NCBI RefSeq assembly: GCF_000969985.1
Contig: NZ_CP009526.1
Span: 3,348,001-3,412,000, forward strand
Source of the DNA: Methanosarcina barkeri str. Wiesmoor
Lineage (GTDB): Archaea; Halobacteriota; Methanosarcinia; Methanosarcinales; Methanosarcinaceae
Direction of reading: 5' to 3'
Length of the DNA: 64,000 nucleotides
Shown here one piece after another: positions 1 to 16,557 of this stretch. Positions within the stretch are counted from its first letter, which is position 1. Each line of letters opens with the position of its first letter. A program made the position numbers and the translations under genes. Below the pieces are notes generated by a model. That model did no database searches. It was not told the origin of the DNA and worked only from the letters and a program-made list of their open reading frames with translations.

Positions 1-637
1 ATATTTCTGTGTATTAACAATAGATCTTGATACTGATTTTTTGTATGGACTGACGAACTCATATAATGCTTCAATCTTTTAGTGCAGCGAAAAATTCGAA
101 TTTTCAATAAATATCAAAATTTTATTATCACAAATTCTCACAACATAATACAAATTTATGAGGAATTTAGAAAATAATCTATCTGATTAAAACAAGTAAT
201 AATGAATTACCAAGAAGTATAATTATATTTGAAAAACATGTACATGCGAAATAGTAAATAAATGGAAAAACAGAAAAAACAATTAAATTTGTGTTTTCCT
301 GCGAAATTTACATAAATGTTTCATTCCTCCTCCCCTAAACAAAAACTTTTATATATAATCAATTTTTTCAGAAATAAGGACTAGGGAAAAAGAGTTTCAG
401 AAATCTGTTTGAAAAACTATATGTAAATATTCCATAGGAAAGCTCAAAATTACAAAGACAGCTGTATCTATTTGGAAACAAAAAACTTATTGAGCTGTGG
501 AGTTGCAGATAATCACAATCCACTTGAGACAATTAATTATATACGGGGTTTTGCCAAAGTTGATAAAATACTTTAAAAAATTGAAATAGATCAAAAATGT
601 TTGGTTTGTGCCCGGAAATTATTAATCAATTCCGAAA
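1..637. other. AT-rich intergenic region
   Basis: No open frame here has protein-like composition on either strand and I see no RNA gene. The stretch is very AT-rich. It lies beyond the end of the cbiMN operon, where cbiQ and cbiO would be expected in a complete cobalt ECF cluster, but nothing resembling them is present. Confidence 0.6.
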
Positions 638-773
638 AAACGAGTATGAAACTCTTCGAATTACAGGCACAAAAATATGAAAGTACTTGAAACGACTTTC
701 ATGCCAAACGAGTATGAAACTCTTCGAATTACAGGCACAAAAATATGAAAGTACTTGAAACGACTTTCATGCC
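638..773. repeat. Two tandem copies of a 68 bp unit, each with a hairpin
   Basis: The segment 638-705 is repeated without change at 706-773. Each copy contains an 8 bp inverted repeat, ATGAAAGT pairing with ACTTTCAT around a 10 nt loop. The copies are head to tail and identical, so this is a recent tandem duplication. It has no distinct spacers and is not a CRISPR array. A small structured RNA or a regulatory element is possible, but nothing seen settles which. Confidence 0.9.
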
Positions 774-870
774 AAAGAGTAAATCTCCCGAATTTGAGAA
801 AAATAGGAATTCTTTTGCTTGTGGTTTTCAAGAACTCAAACCATTAACTAAAAATTAAAAACTAGAAGAG

Positions 871-900
871 AAAAACTTTCCTTCCTTCAAGGAAGGAAAG
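871..900 (-). terminator. Intrinsic-type terminator of the cbiMN operon
   Basis: A perfect 10 bp stem (876-885 with 891-900, loop TTCAA) is followed, reading the minus strand, by five T residues (871-875). It lies 38 bp after the cbiN stop, so transcription of the pair probably ends here. Confidence 0.75.
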
Positions 901-937
901 GAAACATGGCAAAGAAAAAAATGTACAGAGAATGTTT

Positions 938-1273
938 TTACAGCGATTGCTTTTCAGTTTTACTTCCGGTTTTGAACCCGAGTTTTTTTTCATAGTTGTT
1001 TTTGGCCCTGTAATATCCAAGGAAATATCCAATGATCGATGCACCGATAGCTGCCTGTAACGCAAATAGAAGGCTTTCAATTTCACCACTTGGAGGTTCC
1101 CATATAGGTTCTGCAATAGGTTTGTAAGTCCCACCGGTAATTTCCTCAATAACACCTTCAGGTTTGTCGTCAGCTCCGCCATATTCGGCATCTGTGGTCG
1201 AAGAGACGTAAATGAACTGAGCTACAAAAATCAGGAGAATTGCAAGTACTATAAGTTCTAATTTTCTACTCAT
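938..1273 (-). CDS. cbiN: CbiN, cobalt ECF transporter small membrane subunit
   Basis: This 111-residue protein has an N-terminal membrane segment (about residues 5-24), an extracytoplasmic loop rich in Glu, Gly and Pro (30-64), a second membrane segment (about 66-88) and a Lys-rich cytoplasmic tail. That is the usual CbiN plan; the family runs about 90-110 residues. CbiN works with CbiM in cobalt uptake, its loop helping to load Co2+ into CbiM. The start overlaps the cbiM stop by 4 bp (ATGA type), so the two are translationally coupled. No cbiQ or cbiO follows; a terminator is next. CbiMN pairs are known to keep some cobalt uptake without the ATPase module. Confidence 0.92.
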
Positions 1274-1977
1274 GCAGGGAGCCCCCTAAGTTTTCTTACA
1301 AGTGGTTCTCCAATAACTTTCATTTCAACTAATAAATCACTTTTAGCTTGTATGATATACTTGAAAAGCAGTGCACTGACAGCGCCTTCTACAATCGCCA
1401 ACGGTACCTGAGTAATTGCGAAAATTGCAACAAATTTGCTGAATGAACTGAAGAAACCTCCAAAGGTAAGTATGTCTCCTGCAGGAAATGCCAGAGCAAG
1501 TTCTGTAGAAGTCACAATGTAAGTAGCCCAATCTCCAAGGGTTGCAGCCAAAAAGACGATTAAATAAAAATTAAGTTTAGCTTTCATCCCAGTCTTATAG
1601 ATCAGGTATGCCACTATCGGACCCACGATGCCCATGGAGAAGACATTTGCTCCAAGGGTGGTCAGGCCACCATGTGCAAGGAAAAGAGCCTGATAGATAA
1701 GTACAATTGTCGAGAGAACGGCAGTAATAGCAGGCCCAAATATGATTGCACCTATACCAGTCCCTGTTGGATGCGAACAGCTTCCGGTAACTGAAGGCAT
1801 TTTGAGTGATGAAAGGACGAAAATAAATGCACCTGCAACGGCAAGTACAGGTAAAATTCCGCGCTCCTCTTTCACTAACTTATTCAGTTTGTAAACACCA
1901 TATGCTACAACTGGTATTGATACTACAAACCATACTATACACCAAATAGCTGGTAAATATCCTTCCATTATATGCAT
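1270..1977 (-). CDS. cbiM: CbiM, cobalt ECF transporter substrate-binding membrane subunit
   Basis: This 235-residue polytopic membrane protein begins MHIMEGYLP, the diagnostic CbiM N terminus in which His2 takes part in Co2+ binding. The internal stretch [11 protein letters not shown] (about residues 66-76) is also typical of CbiM/NikM proteins. Six to seven hydrophobic segments are visible. It imports Co2+ (a nickel-specific NikM role is less likely given the CobN-family and corrinoid-binding genes next door). The start is supported by GGTGATT just upstream on the minus strand and by a TATA box about 35 bp before it. It is first in a two-gene operon and diverges from the CobN-family gene across an 868 bp gap. 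Confidence 0.92.
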
Positions 1978-2845
1978 CGAATCACCATAATAATAAGGAA
2001 ATAAAGTAAAGTTTATATAAAGTAAATATTATTAAGAGTAAAACAAGTTAAATTGCGTTAATTTGTACATAAAGGTTACGGTGAATAAAAAATAATGGCG
2101 TGGGAGCTTAAAAAATTAATTTAAAGGTAAGAATATTTTCAAGGTATTATAAATATAAAGCAAAACAAGCTAACTTGAATATAGATTATAGATAGATTCG
2201 AAAAGTATTTCTGCTTCTTTAGATTTATGCAATCTAGATCTGCCGAACACAAGACTAACGCACATGAAGTACAAAATCAAGTACTCCAAAGTTTGAACAC
2301 ATTTTATTTGATCTAAAACATTTTATTTAATCCAAATTTTGTTAGTGGAACTTACAGAGATTCCGGAATAAGAACCTTTTAATTTGGATTTGAAAACAAG
2401 TTCCAAGGCAAATACGTGCTTTATTTGTTCATTTTTTCGGTTTGAAGTACAATTTTTATAACTCAAATTTATTACTGATTTTTTTCTTTAATTTTAAGCA
2501 TAATTCTAACTATTTTTGTTTAAATGTGTTAGATCTACACCTATTTTACCTAAATAGGTAATAATTGTGAGCCAAAAAACGTTTTTTATATATTTTTCTA
2601 CCAATGCTCCGAATGTTGAAGTTTATGATATAGAATCGGATGTTCATTATTGTTAAAAGTTTCTGGAGTTGAATTAAATGTCAGAATCTAAACACTCTAT
2701 ATTTTAAAATTCGAAGGCTGTTTCTGTGCAAGTTCCGATATTAGAATAATTTCAAATTAAATCTGCACTGTAAGCCCATCATTATGGTTATTTTCCCCTT
2801 CGGAGCTGCACCAGGGTTTATAATACATTTTCTGGAGATGTCACA
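1978..2845. other. Divergent intergenic region between cbiM and the CobN-family gene
   Basis: The 868 bp are AT-rich with no credible gene. The cbiM promoter lies at the left end. On the right, TTTATAAT at about 2818 may be a TATA element for the CobN-family gene. I looked for a B12-box-like riboswitch and did not find one. The length suggests a long leader or extra regulatory sites. Confidence 0.5.
2011..2022 (-). promoter_or_regulatory. TATA box for cbiMN
   Basis: The minus strand reads CTTTATATAAAC, a good archaeal TATA box, 34-45 bp before the cbiM ATG. This fits a transcription start about 25 bp downstream and a short leader carrying the GGTGATT site. No cobalamin-riboswitch-like box was seen. 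Confidence 0.55.
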
Positions 2846-5800
2846 TTGAATAGAGGCGTAATGTCATTAATTTTAGTTCTATTGTTATTAACAAATGTTG
2901 TATCGGCAGATGAACAGGAAATAAACATTACTGACAGTATCAATGGCAGTATCGATAACAGTACCGATTACGGTACCAATGGCGGTACCAATGGCGGTAT
3001 AGATACCAATGGCGGTATAGATAACAGTACCGATTACAATACCAATGGCGGTATAGATAACAGTACCGATTACAATACCAATGGCAGTATCGATGGCAGT
3101 ATCGATAACAGTACCGATTACAATACCAATGGCAGTATCGATGGCAGTATCGATAACAGTACCGATTACGGTACCAATGGCAGTACCAATGACAGTACCA
3201 ACGATACATTAGGATTAACAACTACAGGAGTTTTGGATGATGAGAACAAATCTGTTAAAGAATCTTCTGATTCTCCGGCTGTGAACACAAAACCAGAAAT
3301 AGCTTACGTATTATCGAGACCTTACGATGTCACTTTTATGGAAAAGGTGGCACAGTATCCAGAAATAAGTTCACAAATGAATATAAGTGTCTACCTTGGG
3401 ACCTCATATTCAGATCTAAGTTTTGACCTTAGTGATAAGGACATGATTGTTCTATCAAATTTGGATTCCTATGTAATTGAAAATATAATACCTACAGTAA
3501 ACAATGCCAAAACAAATGGCGCATATGTTATTTCATTTGGTGATACTTTAGAAGCATACGGGCTTCTCAACGTAAACACATCCTCTCCAGAGTATTCAGA
3601 TATTGCTCAGTATCTGCAGTACGTATCAGAAATAAATTTCTATCGTTTCAATACTTTTATTGGAGCTACGTTCTTCGGGTTGAATTATTCGATCGAGGCT
3701 CCTGTAGAAAGGCCAATATATGGTATCTATAACCCCTCTGCACCTCAGATATACGAAAACCTCACCGATTATCTGGCATGGTACAATTCAACCGGTATAT
3801 ACAAGCCCGAAAACCCTACGATTGCTGTAATAATTGACAGTTATAAGTATGTGGAAAGAGACATGCCTCTTCTTGACCCGCTAGTTAAGGAAATAGAAGA
3901 AAGAGGATGCAATGCGATTGTTTCAACTTATGCTTACAAAGACAATAAGTCAATGAGTTACCTGATGCTGGATAATAAGTCTATTGCAGATACTGCAATT
4001 GTAATCTCCCGTGGCTCACGCCTGAACTATTCTGATAATGAGCAGGGAATTACTGACCTACAGACGCTTAACATCACAGTACTGAACGGAATTCGCCTGT
4101 TCTCGGGAGTAAGTGTGGAAGAATGGGAGAACAGCACTATTGGAGTGCCAGCTGACCAGCAATACCAGGTAGCATATGCGGAACTTGACGGGATAATCGA
4201 GCCCATAGTCATTAGTGGTAAAGCCATAGACGAAGCAACCGGAATCGAATACAACATGCCAATAGACTACCAGGTGGACTGGCTTGTTGACAGGGCAATA
4301 GCCTGGGCCAAATTACATGAAAAAGATAACTCCGAAAAGAAGATCGTAATTCCTTACTATAACCCTGAAGGCGGTAAAGCTGATGTGGGGGCAGATATCG
4401 ACTACTACCTTGATGCACAGGCAAGCCTGGCAAAACTGCTTGAAGCCATGAAAGAACGTGGATATGATGTTGGTACTGCTCCTCTTCCAAATGCTACCGA
4501 AATCGCGAAACTGATGGTGGAAAGAGGGCATAATATCGGCAATTGGGCTCCCGGAGAACTTGAGAAACGTGTTGAAAACGGCAGTATGATACTCATACCC
4601 GAATCACAGTACATGGAATGGTTCAAAGAACTCCCACAGGACAAACAAAATGAAATGACATCTATGTGGGGAGAGGCTCCAGGTGACATTATGGTCTATG
4701 AGAATTCCACAGGCAAATATCTGGCCATACCTGTGCTTCAATTTGGCAACATCATTCTTGCACCCGACCCTCAACACGGCTGGTCTTCAAGCGAGAAAGC
4801 ATTGTATAACAATGCATCGTATCCACCCACCCATCAGTGCTTTGCTTTCTATAAGTATATGTCCCGGGAATACAAGGCAGATGCACTGTTTACTATATTC
4901 TCAAGCGTGGAACTAATGCCTGGAAAAGAATGCGGCCTTTCTGCAAATGACTGGGGAGCACTTTTGCTTGAAGACATGCCTCATGTCCATGTCCTCCCAA
5001 TGGATGCTGAAGGTGTATTTGATAGAAGGAGAGCAAACATGCTCGTCATTGATTTCATGACACCTACTATAGTGCCTTCAGGCCTTTATGGTAACCTTTC
5101 CAACCTGCAACAGGAAATAACATTATTTAAACAGACCTCTGACAGTGCAGTGAAAGAGAATTACAGGCAGGATATAATTAACCAGACAAAAAACATCAGC
5201 CTCGATAATGACCTGAATGTTGACATTGACTCAATTGCAGGTGATACAAACCTTACGGATGCTTTCATTGACAAACTTGCAGACTACCTTTCTGAACTGA
5301 AGACCTCTTACATGCCGTATGGTTCTCACGTACTTGGCGAAGTTCCTGAGGGAGAAAGCCTTGTTATGCTCATAAAAAGTATGCTAGGGGATGAGTATAT
5401 AGAACATGTCGAATCACTTGGAGGAAGCGAGGAACTTTCAATATCGCTCTTGAATGAGACTATATTGAATGGAACATCTCCATATGATGCACAAATAATG
5501 GTGCTTGGTCGGAACTCTACAGAACTTGGAAACGACCTTGACCTGTCATTAGAATATCTTGAAAGGATAAAGCAATGTGACTGTGAGATTACAAAGATAC
5601 TTGATGCACTTGATGGCACATATATCACTCCAGGGCCTTCTGGAGACCCTATCAGGAATCCGGATGCTTTGCCAACTGGCAGGAATCTCTATACATTCGA
5701 TGACAGGCTCATCCCGACAAAAGCAGCATGGAATGTAGGGTCACAGCTCGCGGAAGAGACGTTAAAGCTAAAACTTGAAGAGGACGGCCAGTATCCTGAA

Positions 5801-7375
5801 AAGATAGCTTTTCTGCTGTGGTCTGTGGAAACTACAAGAAACCAGGGTGTTATGGAATCCGAGATATTCCAGCTTCTGGGAGTCGAACCTGTGTATAATG
5901 AAAAGGACAGGGTTACAGGCTTAAAGCTCATAGATTCTAAGGAACTTGGAAGGCCAAGGATTGATGTGATGGTAACCACTTCGGGGCTCTACCGGGATGT
6001 ATATCCGAGCAAGATCGAACTTATAGACCAGGCTATCAAGATGGCAGCTGCAGCAGATAACGATACGTATCCCAACTATGTAAGAGAACATTCCAATGCA
6101 ACATACCAGAGCCTTATTGCAAGAGGATATAATGAGTCACTTGCATACAACCTGTCAGTTTCAAAGATATTCTGTCCACCTCCCGGAGGGTACACACCAG
6201 GCATTCAGGAGGTTATCCCCAGTGATACATGGGAAGATGCAGACGAGATCGCAGGTCTCTATATTGACAGAATGGGATATGTCTACAGCCAGGAGATATG
6301 GGGAGAACATTACTCCGATGTATTCGAACTGAACCTTGAAGATGTTGATACTGCAGTTTTTAGCAGGACATCAAATCTTTATGGTGTGCTTGATCACTCG
6401 ATGGTAGCAGCCTATTTTGGTGGTTTGAGCATGGCAATTGAAAGTGTTAGTGGTACTACACCTGACATGTATATTAACGACCTTAGCAGTTCCGCAGAAA
6501 TTGAAACCCTTAATGAATTCCTTAGTAAGGATCTGCGTTCACGTTACCTGAATCCAAACTGGATAGAAGGAATGATGGGGAACGGTTTTGACGGTACGAG
6601 ATATATGGACTCAGTATTTGAGGTCATGCGCGTATGGGACGTAACAGACCCGGACCTTGTTACTGATGATACATGGAATGAGATGTATGACACATATTTC
6701 AAGGATAAACATAATACCGGTGTTACTGAGTTCCTTAAATCTACAAACCCATATGCTTACCAATCAATGGCTGCTACAGCATTAGATTCGATTCGCACAA
6801 GTTACTGGGATGCCTCCGACGAGGTTACACAAAGCCTTGTTAAAGAATATGTGGAATCTGTGGCCGAAAATGGTGTCACCTGCTGCCACCATACCTGTGG
6901 AAATGCCCTGCTTGATGAATATGTCCAGGGTGTGATGTCAGTTCCTGGCGTAGTTGATGAGAAGACTGCAAATGAATATAAGAAACTGATGCAAGAAGCA
7001 ACGGAACCTTCGCAGCAATCAGGTGAGAGTAGTAGCGGCAGTAGCAGCCATCATGATCACGATACTGGAAAAGCTACTGTAATTTCAGGAACCAGTAAAA
7101 CCAGCAACCAGACCTCAAGCGCTGGTGAATCTACTAATAATCAAACTGTTAAGGGCTCAGATGCAGGATATGGTACGGATACTTCCAAACCTGCTCCTGA
7201 AATTCAGAAATCCGCAGATTCCGATTATGTGGAGGGCTATGAAATGCAGAAGGAGTCAGCTGAAGAAAAAGAAAGTGGAGGTCTGTCTTTCTCTGGTGCA
7301 GATATTTTCGGAATCATCATTGTGGTAGCTGCAGTGGGTGGAATTTATTTCGGATTCCGTAAAAAGAAGATGTAA
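2846..7375 (+). CDS. Exported, membrane-anchored CobN-family (class I metal chelatase large subunit) protein
   Basis: 1509 residues. Order: signal peptide (1-21); Asn/Gly/Thr/Asp-rich repeat region (about 32-115); CobN/BchH-like body (about 150-1330); Ser/Thr-rich linker; C-terminal membrane helix (about 1480-1503) ending in RKKKM. Family signatures include PTGRNLYTFD near 943, an ETxRNQGVxESE segment near 1000, a GRPRIDVMV segment and a NPNWIEGMM segment near 1237. CobN and relatives act on tetrapyrroles: CobN inserts Co2+ into hydrogenobyrinic acid diamide, and the relative HmuS is linked to haem de-metallation. Those proteins are normally cytoplasmic, whereas this one should face outside. 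Many N-x-S/T sequons, a CCHHTC cluster (1346-1351) and HHDHD (1402-1406) are extra metal-ligand candidates. The TTG start is chosen because GGAG lies 8 nt upstream. Substrate and direction of reaction are unknown. Confidence 0.85.
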   Translation: MNRGVMSLILVLLLLTNVVSADEQEINITDSINGSIDNSTDYGTNGGTNGGIDTNGGIDNSTDYNTNGGIDNSTDYNTNGSIDGSIDNSTDYNTNGSIDGSIDNSTDYGTNGSTNDSTNDTLGLTTTGVLDDENKSVKESSDSPAVNTKPEIAYVLSRPYDVTFMEKVAQYPEISSQMNISVYLGTSYSDLSFDLSDKDMIVLSNLDSYVIENIIPTVNNAKTNGAYVISFGDTLEAYGLLNVNTSSPEYSDIAQYLQYVSEINFYRFNTFIGATFFGLNYSIEAPVERPIYGIYNPSAPQIYENLTDYLAWYNSTGIYKPENPTIAVIIDSYKYVERDMPLLDPLVKEIEERGCNAIVSTYAYKDNKSMSYLMLDNKSIADTAIVISRGSRLNYSDNEQGITDLQTLNITVLNGIRLFSGVSVEEWENSTIGVPADQQYQVAYAELDGIIEPIVISGKAIDEATGIEYNMPIDYQVDWLVDRAIAWAKLHEKDNSEKKIVIPYYNPEGGKADVGADIDYYLDAQASLAKLLEAMKERGYDVGTAPLPNATEIAKLMVERGHNIGNWAPGELEKRVENGSMILIPESQYMEWFKELPQDKQNEMTSMWGEAPGDIMVYENSTGKYLAIPVLQFGNIILAPDPQHGWSSSEKALYNNASYPPTHQCFAFYKYMSREYKADALFTIFSSVELMPGKECGLSANDWGALLLEDMPHVHVLPMDAEGVFDRRRANMLVIDFMTPTIVPSGLYGNLSNLQQEITLFKQTSDSAVKENYRQDIINQTKNISLDNDLNVDIDSIAGDTNLTDAFIDKLADYLSELKTSYMPYGSHVLGEVPEGESLVMLIKSMLGDEYIEHVESLGGSEELSISLLNETILNGTSPYDAQIMVLGRNSTELGNDLDLSLEYLERIKQCDCEITKILDALDGTYITPGPSGDPIRNPDALPTGRNLYTFDDRLIPTKAAWNVGSQLAEETLKLKLEEDGQYPEKIAFLLWSVETTRNQGVMESEIFQLLGVEPVYNEKDRVTGLKLIDSKELGRPRIDVMVTTSGLYRDVYPSKIELIDQAIKMAAAADNDTYPNYVREHSNATYQSLIARGYNESLAYNLSVSKIFCPPPGGYTPGIQEVIPSDTWEDADEIAGLYIDRMGYVYSQEIWGEHYSDVFELNLEDVDTAVFSRTSNLYGVLDHSMVAAYFGGLSMAIESVSGTTPDMYINDLSSSAEIETLNEFLSKDLRSRYLNPNWIEGMMGNGFDGTRYMDSVFEVMRVWDVTDPDLVTDDTWNEMYDTYFKDKHNTGVTEFLKSTNPYAYQSMAATALDSIRTSYWDASDEVTQSLVKEYVESVAENGVTCCHHTCGNALLDEYVQGVMSVPGVVDEKTANEYKKLMQEATEPSQQSGESSSGSSSHHDHDTGKATVISGTSKTSNQTSSAGESTNNQTVKGSDAGYGTDTSKPAPEIQKSADSDYVEGYEMQKESAEEKESGGLSFSGADIFGIIIVVAAVGGIYFGFRKKKM
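2938..3204 (+). repeat. Coding tandem repeats in the CobN-family gene
   Basis: Short in-frame repeats (12 bp subunits such as AATGGCAGTATC, combined into units up to 48 bp) encode NGSID, NGGID and NSTDY motifs. They form a low-complexity spacer with many potential N-glycosylation sites just after the signal peptide. Such repeats are prone to slippage, so length probably varies between strains. Confidence 0.85.
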
Positions 7376-7840
7376 ATTAGACTCGAAAAGGGGCTTATCT
7401 CCTTTTCGAATTTTATCTGAAAAAAAGACTTCATTTTTGACCGATCAGCTGATTGTATCTAGTTTTTTGTTTATTTCCATTCCTTTGCTTCTCCATTCAT
7501 TTCTTAAATCTTTTTCATGCAGGGTTTATGGTGAGCCAGTGCAACCTTGTCAATAGAAGGAACTTACAGGAAAAGATAACGTTTGTTACCCAAATAATCA
7601 GATCTAAATAATAGTGTTTAAATTCCTTTTTAAATCCGCTAGTGGCCTCATTAAATATCATTTTTTAGGATTAGCTGGGTACAGACTGTGATGAATTGCC
7701 CGGCAAATAGACTTTTACTTCTTGATCTCCAGAGTTTGTTCAAACTTTAGAAAGTGCCGAGTAGAAAGCCTCTCCCTACGTCCTTCTAGAAATCACGAGC
7801 GGAAACTAACCTGAATCCATCTATAGGAAGATGATATCTA
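7376..7840 (+). other. Intergenic region with terminator before the NosD-like gene
   Basis: The 465 bp hold a hairpin terminator at the left end and no gene that I can support. The NosD-like gene therefore probably has its own promoter in the right half, although I cannot place a clear TATA box. Confidence 0.5.
7383..7414 (+). terminator. Terminator after the CobN-family gene
   Basis: A perfect 9 bp stem, TCGAAAAGG (7383-7391) with CCTTTTCGA (7401-7409), has a 9 nt loop and is followed by ATTTTAT. It begins 8 bp after the stop codon. Confidence 0.7.
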
Positions 7841-9757
7841 TTGAAAAGAAAGACAATACTCGTATTAACTGCCGTTTTTGTACTGTTAATCCTGATATCA
7901 AGCTCTGCGTCCGCAGCTACGCTCTGCGTGAAGGAAGAAGGAGGTGCGGGAAAATACGGAAGCCTTCAGGAAGCCATAAATGCCGCTGCTGAAGGGGATG
8001 TTATCCTCGTCAAGGGAGGGAGTTACAGTGAAAATGTACTTGTAAATAAATCTCTTGACATAATCGCCAGGAATCAATGCCCTGATAAAACCGTCATCAC
8101 TGCTTTGGATCCTGAGCGCCCTGTATTCCATGTGACTTCTAATTCCGTAAATATCAGTGGATTTACTTTGAAAGGAGCAGATTCAGCATATGGGATTTAT
8201 CTTGACGGGGTTTCGGAAAGCAACATCAGCAACAACTATTTTACAGGAAACTGGAGAAGTATCATGCTAAAAGGTTCACATGAGAACTCTCTGGAAAATA
8301 ACTGCTTATCTAGCAGTGACAATGGAATCTGGTTTGAAAGTTCGGAACAAAACTTAATAAAAAACAACAAGGCAGATTCTAACCGTCATTACGGTTTCTA
8401 TTTGAATGCATCCGAAAACAATACTCTTCAAAATAATTGTGCATTTAAGGACGCAATTGGCATTTACATGGAAAACTCTTCCGGCTGCCGTATTATTGAC
8501 TCTGAAACCTCAAACAACTTTTACGGGATCTACCTTACCGGTTCTGGAGAAAGCCTGCTCGAAAACAACACCGCAAACTCAAATGAGATGTATGGCATAT
8601 ACTTGGGAAATTCGAATGGAAGCACTCTGGAAGGAAATATTGCAAACTCAAATATGTGGGGGATTTATCTCGACTCAAGCTTCAACGTACTTAAAAACAA
8701 CTCAATGTCTTGCAACGACAGGAATTTCGGAGCCTATACCTATCACTACACTGGAGAGATGAATAACACAATCGATACCAGCAACACCGCGGATGGAAAA
8801 TCGATATACTATCTTTTAGGAGTTTCGAACAAAACTCTTGACTCTGATTCGAATGCAGGAATTGTCTACTGTATTAACTGTGAAAACATAACTCTCAAAG
8901 ACCTGGTTCTTAAAAACAACAGTTTTGGAGTTTACCTGTACAATACTCAAAACTCACTGCTTGAAGGAAACAATATTTCAAACAATGAACACGGAGTTTA
9001 CCTCGGAAACTGTTCGGTAGTAACTCTCAGGGGCAATGACGCTAATTCGAATGAAGGTGATGCCTTCATCTTAAGCAACTGCAGGAACTGCCTTGTAAAA
9101 GAAAACAATGCTTCGAACAATATGGCAGGTATCTGGCTCTGTGATATTAGCAGAGACAATATCCTCAAAGAAAACACAGTTACTTCGAGTAGCTGGTGCT
9201 GCATAGACCTTGGGGATGTAAGCTGCAACAATACTCTTGAAGGAAATGCTCTTTCCGGGGCCTATGAAGGAATCTATCTGTACGGGGCCAGTGAGAAAAA
9301 TACTTTGAGTAATAATACTATCACAGCCAGCTCATATGGATTATTTACAGAAGGCTGCGGCAACAATACAATTTCAGGAAACAGTATTTCGGGAAATGAC
9401 ATTGGCGTATCTCTTAACCTTAACTGGACCGATGGGACAAATTCGGATTACAACATCATCTACAACAACTATTTGAATAACAGCAAAAACGCCGAAGATT
9501 ACGGAACAAATGCCTGGAACATCTCAAAAACCGAAGGTGAAAATATCGTCGGAGGACCTTACCTGGGAGGGAACTTCTGGGCTTCTCCTGAAGGAGATGG
9601 TTTTTCAGAAACAGCTTCGGATGAAGACGGAGATCTGATTGCAGACCTTCCTTACAATGTAACGGAAACGAACTATGACTATCTCCCCCTTGTATTCGAG
9701 AAGCCTATAGGAAAAAACGAAAATGAGGATGGAAAAAAGTGCGAGAAAAGCAGGTAA
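7841..9757 (+). CDS. Exported right-handed beta-helix (NosD-like) protein
   Basis: 638 residues with a signal peptide (1-25), then a PbH1/NosD-type solenoid in which short N-rich turns of the kind NSLLEGNNISNN recur about every 22-24 residues from about 60 to 560. The last part (YLGGNFWASPEGDGFSET, then a DEDGDLIADLPY stretch) is the usual C-terminal cap of archaeal NosD-like proteins. The family is named for NosD, a periplasmic protein used in nitrous-oxide-reductase copper maturation, but most archaeal members are uncharacterised surface proteins. A TTG start is used, since AGGAAG lies just upstream and an ATG ten bases earlier is out of frame. It sits between the CobN-family gene and the exported corrinoid-binding gene and is 54 bp from the latter, so the last two are probably co-transcribed. 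Confidence 0.82.
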   Translation: MKRKTILVLTAVFVLLILISSSASAATLCVKEEGGAGKYGSLQEAINAAAEGDVILVKGGSYSENVLVNKSLDIIARNQCPDKTVITALDPERPVFHVTSNSVNISGFTLKGADSAYGIYLDGVSESNISNNYFTGNWRSIMLKGSHENSLENNCLSSSDNGIWFESSEQNLIKNNKADSNRHYGFYLNASENNTLQNNCAFKDAIGIYMENSSGCRIIDSETSNNFYGIYLTGSGESLLENNTANSNEMYGIYLGNSNGSTLEGNIANSNMWGIYLDSSFNVLKNNSMSCNDRNFGAYTYHYTGEMNNTIDTSNTADGKSIYYLLGVSNKTLDSDSNAGIVYCINCENITLKDLVLKNNSFGVYLYNTQNSLLEGNNISNNEHGVYLGNCSVVTLRGNDANSNEGDAFILSNCRNCLVKENNASNNMAGIWLCDISRDNILKENTVTSSSWCCIDLGDVSCNNTLEGNALSGAYEGIYLYGASEKNTLSNNTITASSYGLFTEGCGNNTISGNSISGNDIGVSLNLNWTDGTNSDYNIIYNNYLNNSKNAEDYGTNAWNISKTEGENIVGGPYLGGNFWASPEGDGFSETASDEDGDLIADLPYNVTETNYDYLPLVFEKPIGKNENEDGKKCEKSR

Positions 9758-9811
9758 GTCTGGATAAAGAAAGAGGAGAAAAAAGCCTGTATAAAGAGAG
9801 GAGATAAAAAT

Positions 9812-10366
9812 ATGTACGGGAAAAATTTCAATTTATTGGTTCTGTTAATCCTGGGAATAGTTGTTGCTCAATTCGTCTTTCCGGTTTCGGCCGAAGCTTC
9901 TTGCAAACAGGGAAATGAGAGTTCTGGAACTGTCATAATTGGCACTGTTGAAGGGGATTCACACACTTTTGGGAAGGACAGTGTTGCGACTGCGCTCGAA
10001 GACGAAGGTTTTGAAGTAATTGATCTTGGAAATGGCGTATCGGCTGAAAGTTTTGCTGCAAATGCGACAGAAAAGAAAGCCGATTTTGTGTTCAGTTTCG
10101 CCTCTATGAGTACTACAATGATCCACCAGATTCAGATAGAGGAGCAGCTCAAAGCTGCAGGGATCCGGGATAAGGTCATAACGGGTGTGGGTGGGTCGCT
10201 GGTGACTCAGACCTGGGCTGACCAGATAGGAGCTGATATTTATACTGCAGGACCGGAAGACGCGGTTTCCAAAGCAAAATCGGCTCTACTGAAAAGTAAC
10301 AAAAATGTTCCAAAAATCCGAAATTCAGCCAATAAAAGTGCCACTTGCAAAAGCCTTAACGTATAA
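9812..10366 (+). CDS. Exported small protein with MtxC-like corrinoid (B12)-binding domain
   Basis: 184 residues: hydrophobic signal sequence (about 7-28, cleavage near SAEA) followed by one B12-binding Rossmann-like domain (about 38-160). The signature GTVEGDSHTFGK contains D49, H51 and G54 of DxHxxG, where the His is the lower axial cobalt ligand in methyltransferase corrinoid proteins. Downstream FASMSTTM and GGSLVTQTWADQIGAD match the Ser/Thr and VTQ segments of MtaC, MtbC and MttC. Those relatives are cytoplasmic and carry an N-terminal helical cap; here the cap is missing and a signal peptide takes its place. Two cysteines (C31, C179) flank the domain and could form a disulfide. AGGAG upstream supports the ATG. 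A role as extracellular corrinoid carrier is inference. Confidence 0.85.
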   Translation: MYGKNFNLLVLLILGIVVAQFVFPVSAEASCKQGNESSGTVIIGTVEGDSHTFGKDSVATALEDEGFEVIDLGNGVSAESFAANATEKKADFVFSFASMSTTMIHQIQIEEQLKAAGIRDKVITGVGGSLVTQTWADQIGADIYTAGPEDAVSKAKSALLKSNKNVPKIRNSANKSATCKSLNV

Positions 10367-10405
10367 ATTTGTGACTACCAAATCTGTGAAGAGGATCAGA
10401 TTTTG

Positions 10406-10430
10406 AGAGGGAGGAGTTTTCCTTCCCTCC
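10406..10430 (+). terminator. Possible terminator after the corrinoid-binding gene
   Basis: GAGGGAGG pairs with CCTTCCCTC (one bulged T) around AGTTTT, 40 bp after the stop. The following bases are AT-rich but not a clean T run, so the call is moderate. Confidence 0.45.
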
Positions 10431-11000
10431 AATATTTAGTTGTGTCCATGAGGTGTTGCAAATCGTAATCTTAAGACTCTTTTTTACATGTTTTCAATTT
10501 TATCCGTAAATTCCAATTATATCAGTAAATTGTACCGTTAATGACACTTTTCTCGAGGTTGGAGTTGCAGAGAATTAAGCAACTGTTTTTTACAACTATT
10601 ATATAGGCTATTTTTGTTACAGTACTACGGCCTGGAGTATTTTCTAATGTTAAGCTAACAGTATATACTATTGTATTCTAAAATGATTTCGCAGACTCAA
10701 AACCATTTGGAAGTCCAATAAATAATACAACCAGCAGGCAACGCAAAAAGTTAAACGTTGAGTAAATTCCAATTCCATTTTTGTATTGTGGAACGATTAC
10801 GTAAAATGAAACAAATTTGAAGTTGGAGTAAAATAGTGGGTCACCTGTATACGATATGTATTTAAAATACAAAAATTAAAAAAGAGAAATAATTTAAGGA
10901 TGAAACACCGCAAGATCTATCCAGAAATAGATTCCCAATTGAAGCAAAACTCAGAATCGAAATGAGATTGTTTAGGTTATGAAAAAGATTGTTTAGGTTA

Positions 11001-11132
11001 GAGCCTATCCCAAAACCTATTTTATTCTAAATCATCATGAGTTTTTAGGATTATTTTAGCGATTAGGTATTCAATTGATTGTTCCAAATACAAGATTCAA
11101 AAAAATCAAATTCTAAGTTTCGGGATAGGCTC
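11001..11132. mobile_element. MITE-like element, copy 1
   Basis: 132 bp bounded by inverted ends, GAGCCTATCCCAAAAC on the left and the complement of GAGCCTATCCCGAAAC on the right, with GTTA on both sides as a possible target duplication. It has no coding capacity. The interior is diverged but collinear with copies at 27.6-29.4 kb. Confidence 0.75.
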
Positions 11133-12637
11133 GTTATGAAAAATATAGACAAAAGCAAAAAGTGTCAAATTGAAATTTTTTCAGGATAAAAAAACAGAAA
11201 ACTGCCGTGCTAAATTGGCAATAGACAGTGAAAATTTTCATATTTCTTTTGTATTCTCAGTAAAACTGAATTGAAAATGAGAACTATTTTACGCTTTCAT
11301 TATATTTATGATTTTTGTTAATTTTAGTATTATTTAATAATTTTATATATTGAATTTATATGATTTAATAACAATAGTTGACAAGATAATAGTACATTTC
11401 TGTATGCGATCTGAAAAATAATACTGCAAATGGTCGCCGCATTCTAACTTACTAATTGTATCTGTTTTAAAAATAAATCATTTCATCCTTTTTAACATTA
11501 TATTTAATTTTATGATTAGACTTTCTATATAATATTCCAAGATATCGGTACCGGGAACAGTATATTTATTATCAGCATGGTGCTTAAGTTAATGAAAAAC
11601 TATCAACCATCATCGAATATAAATTATTTAAACTCAAAACTTATTATAAAAACTTATGGAACATATCTTAAAAAATATTAATGTTTTATATAATTAATTT
11701 ATTCAAAACCACATAATACCTATAAAATAACTTTATATAATTGGTATAAAATCATTATTATGTCGAAAGGAAATGGAGTCCAAAAGTAAGATAGATAAAT
11801 AGATTCTGAAGCCAAGCTGAAAAGACATCTGCCGATCAGTATGGCAACTCAGTATATTGAGAGTGACATTCGACAGCCAACCACCTGAGTATCAATGAAA
11901 GGTGATTGCATTATTGGACAGAAAGAGCCTGGAAAATGACGATAAAAACTGATTTTCCAGGCCCTTGCCTAATACCGCTTGACAGTTTCCACCAGAAACC
12001 GTCGAGGTCGACCTGGAGAAAGATAGAAAAGATCCATATCCGGGCTATTTTGTATTATCTCGGGCTTTATATATATACTTACTGGGAAGTATCGACCGAA
12101 GGCTCTCAAGAACCTGTCGAATACTAACCGGAAAAAATAGAGAATCCACATAATGGAAAGGCGCTGACAACTGTAAAAAGCCGCACAATCCGAAATCGGT
12201 AAAAGCAACATGCAAATCCAGTTAGAGAAGCAGGCCGGTATGAAATACAATTGGTCTTTCTGTAATTTGATTGAAGTTATTTTCAAACATATTTGTATAG
12301 TTTTCGTATTTTTTGTTCCACACTTTAATCAGGTTAGTTTCACACTTTAATCAGGTTAGCTAGAGCAAGCTACCTTAGTTCATGAAAAGTAAAACGTTAG
12401 TTAAACTGGATATTGCTCATGAAATACCTACCAGTTAGCGAAAGATCACAAACTACTCCCATATTGAGAAATAGACGGTATTTTTGTGGATTTTTATGAA
12501 GTCTATTAGAACTGCAAAATTTGTGCCATCATTGATGATATATCAAAAAAGTTAGTTAAATATTATATAAAGTGATTTCATAAAAATTTGAAAGTTGGAT
12601 GATTTGGATCATTAGGGATTATCTGGAGTGTGAAAAT

Positions 12638-13888
12638 ATGGCCAAAGAGAATAAAATTCCGAAGCGGAATTATTTACGGATAAAACAAATGAATATACAC
12701 TATCTAACAGATATATATTTTGGAGAAAAAAATGCTGGGACGACACACACACTGGAAATTTATAATAATTTATCAAAAAAAAATGAAGTCCATTTGATAT
12801 GTCAAAAACCACAGACTGAAATTGAAATCAAAAATAAATGTTATATTCCACTTTTTGGTACCAAGCGTGTAAAGCGCACTATTCTGTTGAATTTTCTATT
12901 CTGGATGATATACCCCCTATACATATTAATCAAAAAAAAACCAGACATATTTTATCAGCGATTTGATGGAACATTATTCTTATCCCCCTCATTGATATTC
13001 TCTAAATTATTTAATATCCCTCTGGTTATGGAAGTTAATGGGAATATGCTTGACGAGATATCAATGAGACACGAGCCACAGGTTTATGTGAAACTCATAA
13101 AACTATGTGAAAAAAGTTATTACTCAAAAGCAAGCAGGATAATTACAGTCACTGAAGGAATAAAACAAGAAATAATCAAAAAGTACCGCATTCCTGAAGA
13201 AAAAATAGAGGTAATAGGAAACGGAGTAAATACAGATATATTCAGGCCATTGAATAAGAGATCAAATTTGAAAACGAAATACGGGCTTGATAAAAACAAT
13301 GTTGTTGCTTTTGCTGGCATTCTAGTAGAATGGCAGGGACTTAAATATCTCATAGAAGCCGCACCTGCAATTTTGAAAGAAGAAACAGAAACAATATTTT
13401 TAATAATCGGGGATGGGCCTTTAAAAAACGATCTGATTCAAAAAGTTAAAGATCTAAATATAGATAAAAAATTCATATTCACAGGTTTCGTATCCTATGA
13501 TGAAGTGCCACTATATATAAATGCAAGTGATGTTTGCGTGGTACCTAAGATACCCCTAAAGTCTGGCTATTCTCCTTTAAAATTATATGAATATATGGCG
13601 TGCGGAAAAGCTGTCATAGCAAGTGATGTGAGAGGATTTGAAATACTGAATCAAGTAAAAGCAGGAGTTTTGGTTGAGCCGCAAAACTCTCAGAAACTAT
13701 CTGAGGCTATTTTACAAGTGCTAAAGGACGGAGCTTTAAAAAATGAAATGGGAAAACGTGGGCGTAACGAAGTGTTGATGCACTACAGTTGGGGAAATGT
13801 GGCTCAGAAAACAGAAGAATTATTTATAAACACATTAAATGAAAATTATATAAATTCTAAACGTTTGAGGGCAAGTTCCAGACTTTAA
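12638..13888 (+). CDS. Glycosyltransferase family 4
   Basis: 416 residues from the ATG at 12638, chosen because GGAG lies 9 nt upstream; an upstream in-frame ATG at 12599 has no site. The C-terminal GT-B half shows family-4 landmarks: an IGNGVNTDIF motif, AGILVEWQG, then a PLKLYEYMACGKAVIASD segment containing the nucleotide-sugar-binding E-x7-type region. It should transfer a sugar from a nucleotide donor on the cytoplasmic face, for a surface glycan or N-glycan. It begins a plus-strand series with the epimerase and flippase. The last codons are formed from a degenerate copy of the 21 bp repeat that continues past the stop, suggesting the C terminus has been altered by repeat expansion. Confidence 0.88.
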   Translation: MAKENKIPKRNYLRIKQMNIHYLTDIYFGEKNAGTTHTLEIYNNLSKKNEVHLICQKPQTEIEIKNKCYIPLFGTKRVKRTILLNFLFWMIYPLYILIKKKPDIFYQRFDGTLFLSPSLIFSKLFNIPLVMEVNGNMLDEISMRHEPQVYVKLIKLCEKSYYSKASRIITVTEGIKQEIIKKYRIPEEKIEVIGNGVNTDIFRPLNKRSNLKTKYGLDKNNVVAFAGILVEWQGLKYLIEAAPAILKEETETIFLIIGDGPLKNDLIQKVKDLNIDKKFIFTGFVSYDEVPLYINASDVCVVPKIPLKSGYSPLKLYEYMACGKAVIASDVRGFEILNQVKAGVLVEPQNSQKLSEAILQVLKDGALKNEMGKRGRNEVLMHYSWGNVAQKTEELFINTLNENYINSKRLRASSRL

Positions 13889-13977
13889 AGAGTGAACTCT
13901 AAACATTTGAGAGTAAGTTCTAAATATTTGAGAGTAAGTTCTAAATATTTGAGAGTAAGTTCTAAATATTTGAGGAT
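13855..13977 (+). repeat. 21 bp tandem repeats across the GT4 stop codon
   Basis: About five to six copies of a 21 bp unit, consensus TTCTAAATATTTGAGAGTAAG. The three closest to wecB are nearly identical and the earlier ones degenerate into the 3' end of the glycosyltransferase gene. The last copy supplies the TTGAGGAT that acts as the wecB ribosome binding site. The unit length is a multiple of three. Confidence 0.88.
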
Positions 13978-13980
13978 AAA

Positions 13981-15042
13981 ATGAAAATAGTATCTATTGT
14001 CGGAGCTCGTCCTCAATTCATCAAGTGTGCACCTCTTTCTCGACTTATACGAGAAAAACACGAAGAAATACTCATACATACAGGTCAGCATTACGACACA
14101 GGAATGTCCGATATTTTCTTTGATGAACTAAAGATCCCTAAACCGAACTACAATCTTGGTGTAGGGTCCAACAGTCATGGAGTTCAAACTGGAAAAATGT
14201 TGATTGAAATTGAAAAAATTCTTCTAAGAGAAAGTCCCGACCTTGTCCTTGTATACGGGGACACGAACTCTACACTTGCAGGAGATCTTGCTGCTTCCAA
14301 ATTACATATCAAAACTGCGCATATAGAAGCTGGTCTTCGGTCTTTTGATCGGTCCATGCCTGAAGAAATTAACAGAGTACTTACAGACCATACCTCAGAC
14401 CTGCTTTTTTGCCCAACAGAAACTGCAGTCTTAAACCTAAAAAAAGAAGGAATCACAACAGGAGTCTATAATGTAGGAGATGTAATGCTTGATTCTTTGA
14501 AATATAACATAAGGATTGCAGAACAAAAAGCTACAATTCTGGGGAAGCTGAACCTTAACTCAAAAGAATATATTGTTGCAACTGTTCATCGGGCTTCGAA
14601 CACTGACAGCTTTGAAAACCTTTCCTCCATAACAAACGCTTTCTGTCACACAGGTGTTTCCATTGTATTTACAGTTCACCCTAGAACTGAAAAGTATCTG
14701 AAACAGTACGGTCTCTGGAATAAATTGTGTGAAAAAGTTAAAGTCATTCCTCCCCTTGGATACCTGGAAATGCTAAAGCTCATGGTTCATGCAAAGAAGA
14801 TCCTTACAGACTCAGGAGGCGTGCAGAAAGAAGCTTACATGCTTGGAGTACCCTGCATAACTATGAGGGAAAATACCGAATGGGTGGAAACTATAGAGGA
14901 TGGAGGGAATGTACTTGTTGGAACGGACTATGAGAAAATCATGGATGCAATTTTAAATTTTAAAGGTGTTCCCGTAAAAGGGAACTTTTTCGGAAATGGG
15001 AATGCATGTGCGGAAATTTGTAAAACATTAAACAAATTGTAA
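13981..15042 (+). CDS. wecB: UDP-N-acetylglucosamine 2-epimerase (non-hydrolysing)
   Basis: 353 residues, normal for the family. Motifs in order: GARPQFIK at the N terminus, HTGQHYD near 40, YGDTNSTLAG near 92, HIEAGLRSFDR near 115 (UDP binding and catalysis), TVHRASNTD near 202, and TDSGGVQKEA near 278. It interconverts UDP-GlcNAc and UDP-ManNAc, the first step to ManNAc-type sugars for surface polysaccharide or N-glycan. No UDP-ManNAc dehydrogenase gene is in the window, so the end sugar is not defined. GAGGAT 6 nt before the ATG supports the start. It lies 92 bp after the GT4 gene and 66 bp before the flippase, so one operon is likely. Confidence 0.93.
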   Translation: MKIVSIVGARPQFIKCAPLSRLIREKHEEILIHTGQHYDTGMSDIFFDELKIPKPNYNLGVGSNSHGVQTGKMLIEIEKILLRESPDLVLVYGDTNSTLAGDLAASKLHIKTAHIEAGLRSFDRSMPEEINRVLTDHTSDLLFCPTETAVLNLKKEGITTGVYNVGDVMLDSLKYNIRIAEQKATILGKLNLNSKEYIVATVHRASNTDSFENLSSITNAFCHTGVSIVFTVHPRTEKYLKQYGLWNKLCEKVKVIPPLGYLEMLKLMVHAKKILTDSGGVQKEAYMLGVPCITMRENTEWVETIEDGGNVLVGTDYEKIMDAILNFKGVPVKGNFFGNGNACAEICKTLNKL

Positions 15043-15108
15043 TAAAGTTCCCACTGAAATATTTTATATGACTTTCTCCTTCTTTAATTCGTAAAACGGT
15101 GTGATCTG

Positions 15109-16557
15109 TTGTCAGAACTCCAAAAATTTACATCTGATGTTGGTGTTACATTTATAGCTTCTGCTATAGGTATGCTTTTAGGATTTCCTATAACCGTACT
15201 CTTGGGACGATATTTAGGAGCCGATGATCTGGGTCTTTATCGAATGGTGAACACCATCTTTGGAAGTCTTATGCTGTTTGTCACTATTGGAGTTCCTGCA
15301 GCTATTATAAAATATGTGGCTGAATTTCGTGACAACGAAGAAAAAATAGCACAAATTGTGTCTGCAGGTTTAATCACATCTGTTTTATTGGGATTATTTT
15401 CTTTCATATTTATTTATCTGAGTACAAATTTATTCGCGAAATTATTTAACATGCCTGAACTTTCAGGCCTATTGAAAATTCTTGCTTTTGCGTTTCCATT
15501 TTCTATTATTAATAGTACACTTCTTGGTCTTCTCAATGGCTTGAGAGAAATGACTAAAAACGCATGGGCCACCATAGTTCAGAGTACATTTTTACTAATT
15601 TTTACTTTTCTCCTAGTTTTTAAGTACGGCGTCAATGGCGCAGTTACTGGGATCGTACTCTCATCTGCTCTGACAACACTGCTTTTGATATCTGTTCAAA
15701 AGATTTCCAAGATAACATTTTCCAATTTGTATGGAGCAGTTGTTCAGATTATTGATTTTGGTTCAAAAACAGTGCTTGCAAATGCAATAAATCTTATTAA
15801 TTACCAGGCAGATATCCTGATGATTGGGTACTTTATGACCAAAACAGATGTTGGAGTTTATAGCGTTGCAGTTATGTTTGCAAAGCTTATCTGGATTTTT
15901 CCCGATTCACTTCAGAAAATTACTTTCCCTCTTATCTCTGAATACCATGCAAAAAAAATGAGCGATTCAATAACAACTGTAGTTGACAGATGTATGAAAT
16001 ATAGTTGTCTTTTTTTGACTTTTTTCACTACTTTTTTTATTTTTTTCGGAGAAAAGGTTGTAGCTCTCATCTTTGGAGCTGAATTTGAACTCTCATACAT
16101 TCCATTAATCATTTTGCTCATTGGAACTCTTTTTTATGGAATAACTAAATCTGTAGGGTCTATTTTTGCAAGCATTGGAAAAGTTAATCTTGTCTACAAA
16201 ATTCCTTTGGTTTCAGCAACATTTAACATTATTATTAATATAGTCTTGATCCCAACTTATGGTATCAATGGAGGAGCCCTTGCAACAAGTTTTTCTCTGA
16301 TTATCAGTATGATTCTAATGCTTCATTTTATGAAGTCCCTTTTAGAGATTAAGTTTGACTTCTGGTGGTATTTTAAAATCTTTGGTATTACAATGTTTTT
16401 AATTCTTGTCTACCTAATAATAGTAAACAAGTATAACATATTACTTGGATTAGTTTTAATGGCTTTACAATATGTTATATTTTTCAGATTTTTTATCCCA
16501 GTTGAGGATAAACAAATATTATATAAAGTAATTTCTACCAATGGGAGAAATTATTAA
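15109..16557 (+). CDS. Polysaccharide flippase, Wzx/RfbX-type (MOP superfamily)
   Basis: 482 residues with about twelve to fourteen hydrophobic segments over the whole length and no large soluble domain, as in the polysaccharide-transport branch of the MOP exporter superfamily. The opening stretch, with GFPITVLLGRYLGADDLGLY at about 25-44, is typical of archaeal family members. It should flip lipid-linked glycan from the inner to the outer side of the membrane. The TTG start is preceded by GGTGTGAT. It follows wecB by 66 bp. Confidence 0.88.
   Translation: MSELQKFTSDVGVTFIASAIGMLLGFPITVLLGRYLGADDLGLYRMVNTIFGSLMLFVTIGVPAAIIKYVAEFRDNEEKIAQIVSAGLITSVLLGLFSFIFIYLSTNLFAKLFNMPELSGLLKILAFAFPFSIINSTLLGLLNGLREMTKNAWATIVQSTFLLIFTFLLVFKYGVNGAVTGIVLSSALTTLLLISVQKISKITFSNLYGAVVQIIDFGSKTVLANAINLINYQADILMIGYFMTKTDVGVYSVAVMFAKLIWIFPDSLQKITFPLISEYHAKKMSDSITTVVDRCMKYSCLFLTFFTTFFIFFGEKVVALIFGAEFELSYIPLIILLIGTLFYGITKSVGSIFASIGKVNLVYKIPLVSATFNIIINIVLIPTYGINGGALATSFSLIISMILMLHFMKSLLEIKFDFWWYFKIFGITMFLILVYLIIVNKYNILLGLVLMALQYVIFFRFFIPVEDKQILYKVISTNGRNY

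Follow-up and report, generated by a model that had tools for sequence, protein, structure and literature searches.

A predicted exported corrinoid-type B12-binding domain paired with a NosD-like beta-helix protein in Methanosarcina

So far as our literature search shows, the B12-binding Rossmann domain is known solely inside cells, carrying the cofactor in methyltransferases, mutases and light sensors, and the search turned up no description of a corrinoid domain that is exported. What might such a domain do in a methanogen when it stands behind an apparent export signal? The question is posed by a gene of Methanosarcina barkeri str. Wiesmoor at positions 9812-10366 (forward strand) of the window, i.e. 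the whole 64,000-nucleotide stretch of DNA analyzed here, itself part of a 4.9-Mb genome. Its 184-aa product begins with a hydrophobic export signal, continues into a B12-binding Rossmann domain and ends in a disordered tail. The reading we favor as most likely, with middling confidence, is that of an extracytoplasmic corrinoid- or cobalt-tetrapyrrole-binding protein with a beta-helix partner.

A capless B12-binding domain and its N-terminus

The ATG at 9812 is preceded by a GGAG ribosome-binding site. No further in-frame Met occurs before residue 99, already within the B12-binding domain, and hence there is no ATG start for a capless cytosolic form. Conservation across 11 genomes, together with purifying selection on the domain (dN/dS 0.07-0.19, about 0.1, over the species compared), excludes a chance frame; the signal evolves more loosely than the domain, and the tail more loosely than the signal.

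The domain spans residues 39-160 (9926-10291, forward strand). PF02310 (Pfam B12-binding) was the only Pfam profile matched, at residues 40-150 (E 2.5e-22; 79.4 bits against a curated cut-off of 32.1), and no BtuF-type periplasmic-binding-protein profile was recovered. The AlphaFold2 model has a pLDDT of about 96 over residues 40-160 with both flanks of the domain disordered, and its residues 36-160 superimpose on MttC in the MttB-MttC complex (7XCN, chain 7xcn_M) with Z 25.5 at 0.9 Å over 125 residues and 57% identity. An earlier note made from the DNA sequence had proposed a corrinoid-type Rossmann domain, which these matches bear out; the residues and motifs it named are also present (D49, H51 and G54 of DSHTFG, F96-A-S-M-S-T-T-M103, V131-T-Q133, C31 and C179). 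Its likening of the protein to MtaC and MttC alike holds for the corrinoid-protein fold, but the nearest relative is MttC, with 55-58% identity over the corrinoid domain, and not MtaC: the comparison it suggested with the latter (2I2X) gives a match at Z 21.0 with 30-31% identity.

The four-helix cap that precedes the domain in the methyltransferase proteins is missing, as the note had also held. The alignment to TIGR02370 (NCBIfam corrinoid protein) starts only at position 74 of the 197 in the model, such that the N-terminal, cap part is absent, and its score of 118.9 bits falls below the curated cut-off of 215.3 for this methyltransferase corrinoid family. Only 35 residues precede the domain, and these are modeled as one low-confidence helix (residues 4-22).

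Residues 1-27 (MYGKNFNLLVLLILGIVVAQFVFPVSA; 9812-9892, forward strand) are instead a predicted Sec-type signal peptide or N-terminal anchor, recognized from hydropathy and the model helix, with K4 in the n-region, a hydrophobic core at residues 8-24 and then ...PVSA/EASC. We infer export from hydropathy and conservation: in every exported relative listed, the peak 15-residue Kyte-Doolittle mean ahead of the domain falls in the range 2.37-3.34, whereas none of the 88 cytosolic relatives compared exceeds 1.81. The exported relatives have 35-67 residues before the domain, and nearly all of the 88 cytosolic ones at least 84, forming a charged cap; the few with fewer than 84 appear truncated, either by the end of a contig or by the start codon chosen. 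Thus, an export signal without a cap occurs in all exported relatives and the reverse in cytosolic ones, a pattern that we count in favor of the preferred reading. With this contrast conserved throughout the exported relatives, the N-terminal export signal suspected earlier is probably genuine. In one orthologue the linker that follows the signal is a run of N-x-S sequons (an N-x-S/T expansion), which would be compatible with an exported glycoprotein.

The two cysteines flanking the domain, C31 (9902-9904, forward strand) and C179 in the disordered tail (10346-10348, forward strand), had been thought to form a disulfide. S, G or W replaces C31 in three of 11 relatives, others have C179 displaced or lack it, and with such variation and disordered flanks a conserved C31-C179 disulfide is ruled out. 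Separately, four orthologues (L044, L046, L047 and L048) end in CGSCHR, CGNCHR or CGSCHG, giving a terminal CxxCH like the c-type heme attachment motif.

Ancestry and a possibly remodeled binding site

The exported family is present in 11 of 31 Methanosarcina genomes. A class-wide search of 200 genomes recovered no exported relative outside Methanosarcina, with an E-value gap from 1e-98 to 1e-48 separating exported from cytosolic matches, and a contig scan with two peptide patterns likewise found no relative outside the genus; a bacterial counterpart that arose independently is conceivable. In a tree of domain sequences the exported proteins form a single clade (support 100/100; stem of 1.34 changes per site) that sits among MttC and MtbC sequences, its exact placement being uncertain as the tree program warns of long-branch joining. 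This grouping points to common ancestry with the methyltransferase corrinoid proteins. Identity over the domain is lower to MtbC than to MttC, and an MttC origin appears to be supported more by identity than by branching order. On sequence grounds, then, the exported family is best described as kin of the methylamine corrinoid proteins that has been relocated. We propose a single origin in Methanosarcina from an MttC/MtbC-like protein, in the course of which the helical cap would have been lost, an export signal gained and the corrin-site loops retuned.

Comparison with solved proteins sharpens what has changed. MttC shares the fold and the D-x-H, T and GG residues with the exported protein, which differs in lacking the N-terminal helical cap, having the export signal, losing SxL, reading LGNGVS for LGRDVP and VGGSL for VGGAP, and having no methyltransferase gene adjoining; no cognate methyltransferase gene was found among the ORFs of window positions 1-16000 or beside the orthologous pairs described below. 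The Moorella thermoacetica corrinoid (factor-III) protein 1Y80 matches in fold (Z 25.1 across 125 residues) but is a cytosolic methyl-transfer protein with a cap in its full chain, at 37% identity. MtmC (3EZX; Z 22.9) belongs, like MtaC, to the same superfamily; it too shows only 30-31% identity, and both are capped and cytosolic.

The consensus for B12-binding is DXHXXG-41/42-SXL-26/28-GG (PMC4915002), and the window protein reads DSHTFG-41-FAS-28-GG, with the first and last elements at consensus spacing. These correspond to residues 49-54 (9956-9973, with H51 at 9962-9964), F96-A-S98-M-S-T-T102 in the place of SxL according to the alignment with MttC (10097-10117) and G127-G128 (10190-10195), all on the forward strand. 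D49 and H51 are invariant in exported and cytosolic relatives alike; T102, which aligns with the third T of SALMTTTM in MttC, G127 and G128 are invariant too, and the QIQIEEQLK...GIR scaffold is invariant under strong purifying selection. H51 is the expected lower cobalt ligand, and we envisage that a corrinoid, a fragment of one or another cobalt tetrapyrrole would be held base-off on it.

The remainder of the site has diverged. SxL is replaced by F-A-S in the window protein and by S-A-S in other exported members: L98 has become S in all 11 and S96 has become F in five of the 11, against S-A-L in every MttC and MtbC compared. G54 is V in two orthologues. With SxL lost and G54V tolerated, the protein may bind cobalamin weakly or not at all. 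Thirteen positions are fixed differently between the exported proteins and MttC, 11 of which (46, 50, 52, 57, 61, 75, 98, 100, 125, 129 and 130) lie near corrin-facing elements in a grouping made by eye and post hoc. The corrin-face loop changes comprise I50S, I57S, M61A, D75G, L98S, M125G, A129S and P130L, with I57S, M61A, L98S and M125G being large-to-small replacements. These changes are consistent with a pocket remodeled to take a different corrinoid, to hold one less tightly or to accept some other ligand, and the protein may not share the ligand preference of MttC. The 'corrinoid carrier' of the earlier note is hence plausible in terms of sequence, though complicated by the SxL loss and the jointly altered loops.

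These concerted loop changes, along with the SxL loss, the tolerance of G54V in two species and the long stem branch, also furnish the case for the main rival explanation, namely that the exported domain has ceased to bind corrinoid and that its D49-H51-T102 site binds Co2+/Ni2+, heme or another tetrapyrrole, or else that the protein serves the beta-helix protein as a structural subunit. We regard this as unlikely, if far from negligible, given that strong purifying selection has kept D49, H51, T102, both glycines and the scaffold invariant and that the fold is the same as that of MttC.

The beta-helix partner

The gene 54 bp upstream (7841-9757, forward strand) encodes a secreted NosD-like right-handed beta-helix protein of 638 aa (PF05048, E 6.8e-72). 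A close orthologue of it occurs in exactly the same 11 of the 31 genomes as the corrinoid-domain gene, and the two are adjacent at every locus examined; this pairing is the strongest functional link available. It also bears on the view that the corrinoid-domain gene is a cytosolic MttC copy, misannotated or in decay, with its cap lost and its hydrophobic N-terminus accidental. Although the SxL loss, the variable tail and the truncation of the orthologue in G080 at residue 159 might be taken that way, a fixed partner gene, a signal conserved in all members and the low domain dN/dS already contradict it, leaving it scarcely credible.

Under the preferred reading, of an extracytoplasmic binding protein, the exposed upper face of the ligand would be covered or read by the NosD-like beta-helix in place of the cap. 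Twelve cysteines of the beta-helix protein (200, 216, 344, 347, 391, 414, 417, 434, 453, 454, 462 and 506) are invariant or nearly so; many of them lie close to one and the same turn on consecutive rungs, and they include two CxxC motifs. Together they may form a ladder of metal sites or of disulfides. At E 1e-150, the 24 genera of the order covered by the search gave no NosD-like relative outside Methanosarcina, and a fold search with its model returned generic beta-helix matches alone, NosDFY (7O0Y) among them.

A terminator-like hairpin lies between the upstream cobN-like gene and nosD (7383-7409, forward strand), a pattern match of a kind that shuffled sequences yield about as often. As it separates cobN, it suggests that nosD and the corrinoid-domain gene form their own transcript, and we count it against the preferred reading. 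Rfam at the gathering threshold gave no riboswitch or other RNA in window positions 1-13000.

CobN-like neighbors, cobalt import and possible roles

Upstream of the hairpin the window encodes an exported, C-terminally anchored CobN-like protein of 1509 aa (2846-7375, forward strand; PF02514, E 1.6e-298), and divergent from it are the cobalt ECF importer components cbiM (1270-1977, reverse strand; PF01891, TIGR00123) and cbiN (938-1273, reverse strand; PF02553). Past cbiN and outside the window follow a CDF cation-efflux gene, cbiQ and cbiO (the L009 genes). Exported CobN-like genes occur within a few kb of the pair in seven of the 11 genomes: they are full-length in the window, in G048 (on both sides of the pair) and in G080, split in ERenArc_MAG2, and reduced to N-terminal remnants in G076, G084 and G090. 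These seven loci fall into two contexts, a CbiMNQO/CDF operon, as in the window group where the corrinoid gene is near the cobalt importer, and a DUF2162-MotA/TolQ-CobN island, as in G048 and G080. The three remnants are still evolving at a dN/dS of 0.2-0.3. Secreted proteins of 191-218 aa equivalent to the CobN-like N-terminus are placed between cbiM and nosD at L040 (9157-9810), L041 (11729-12304), L042 (14789-15364) and L049 (3423-4079), with a dN/dS of 0.2-0.3; such short proteins might be remnants or a stand-alone head domain.

The best solved relative of the window CobN-like protein is the heme de-chelatase HmuS, which uses His-538 of an HFG(T/A)HG motif reported to be strictly conserved across the chelatase superfamily (PMC12583661). 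A surface relay can be imagined in which the exported domain donates corrinoid to a CobN/HmuS-like protein, cobalt is removed and CbiMNQO imports it. The kinship to HmuS, the cbiMNQO genes next door and the HFGTHG retained in the CobN neighbors in G048 and G080 speak for it. We nonetheless judge this full cobalt-salvage scheme improbable, and more so than the main rival above: the window protein has FTIFSS in place of HFG(T/A)HG, as do its orthologues L107-L109 (G082, G062 and G086), the pair is away from any CobN in four genomes, and removing cobalt from corrinoids is chemically hard, with no precedent found. A frameshift behind the lost motif is ruled out by the presence of FTIFSS in three orthologues. 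The H-x-G-x-H-G pattern is kept in the other CobNs of this genome and in those of G048 and G080; without it the window protein belongs to a distinct subgroup, also marked by GVL(D/E)HxMVAAYFGG and with the exported corrinoid protein in all four of its genomes, for which the name de-chelatase is not warranted. A simple de-chelatase story thus does not appear to fit the window CobN, and the HmuS authors themselves call the functions of archaeal CobNs unclear (PMC12583661).

Four orthologous loci have no CobN nearby and a DUF2111-PAS-GAF gene instead, which we count against the preferred reading. This upstream gene (DUF2111-PAS-PAS-GAF) might point to signaling or adhesion rather than nutrition, the exported protein sensing or trapping corrinoid at the surface, and some beta-helix proteins are indeed adhesins or sugar binders. 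However, no membrane part by which the PAS-GAF protein might reach an outside ligand is evident, and the gene is missing at the remaining loci; we give this explanation only a slight chance.

We return to the preferred reading, of an extracytoplasmic corrinoid- or cobalt-tetrapyrrole-binding protein. The product would be secreted or N-terminally anchored, and it would most likely serve to catch corrinoid or cobalt tetrapyrrole from outside as these reach the cell surface, the ligand then passing to uptake or salvage or to tetrapyrrole handling by surface CobN-type proteins, with CbiMNQO importing cobalt. The locus as a whole suggests that the Methanosarcina species carrying it may handle cobalt cofactors outside the cell. 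More tentatively, and short of an even chance, we envisage an extracellular module in which the corrinoid domain of methylamine methanogenesis, now exported, docks on a cysteine-laddered beta-helix and, with surface CobN-family proteins, captures or dismantles environmental corrinoids or cobalt tetrapyrroles. If true, this would be the first extracytoplasmic use of a methyltransferase-type B12 domain known to us. The cobalt need of methanogens is high, and a conserved exported version would mean a new route of corrinoid or cobalt acquisition for them, as well as a way to approach the numerous CobN-like proteins on archaeal cell surfaces.

BtuF, BtuG and other extracytoplasmic corrinoid carriers resemble the proposed role in holding corrinoid outside the membrane; their folds are unrelated to the B12-binding Rossmann domain. 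Surface B12-capture lipoproteins provide further background (eLife 2018, PMC6143338). The Hmu system (HmuS de-chelatase, HmuU/V; EMBO J 2025, PMC12583661) is alike in its extracytoplasmic CobN-family protein and in the MotA/TolQ/ExbB-type gene of related loci, but has neither a corrinoid-domain nor a beta-helix protein, and its motif is the one absent from the window CobN. At L043 (4852-6164) and L126 (3870-5185), DUF2162 transporter and MotA/TolQ/ExbB-like genes lie upstream of surface CobN genes and, by analogy, may recall the energizing genes of the bacterial Hmu operon. Within the window, a 12/36/48-base tandem repeat at 2932-3199 yields the sequon (N-x-S/T)-rich N-terminus of the CobN-like protein, and two tandem 68-base copies, 98% alike, lie at 638-781 just past the 3' end of cbiN.
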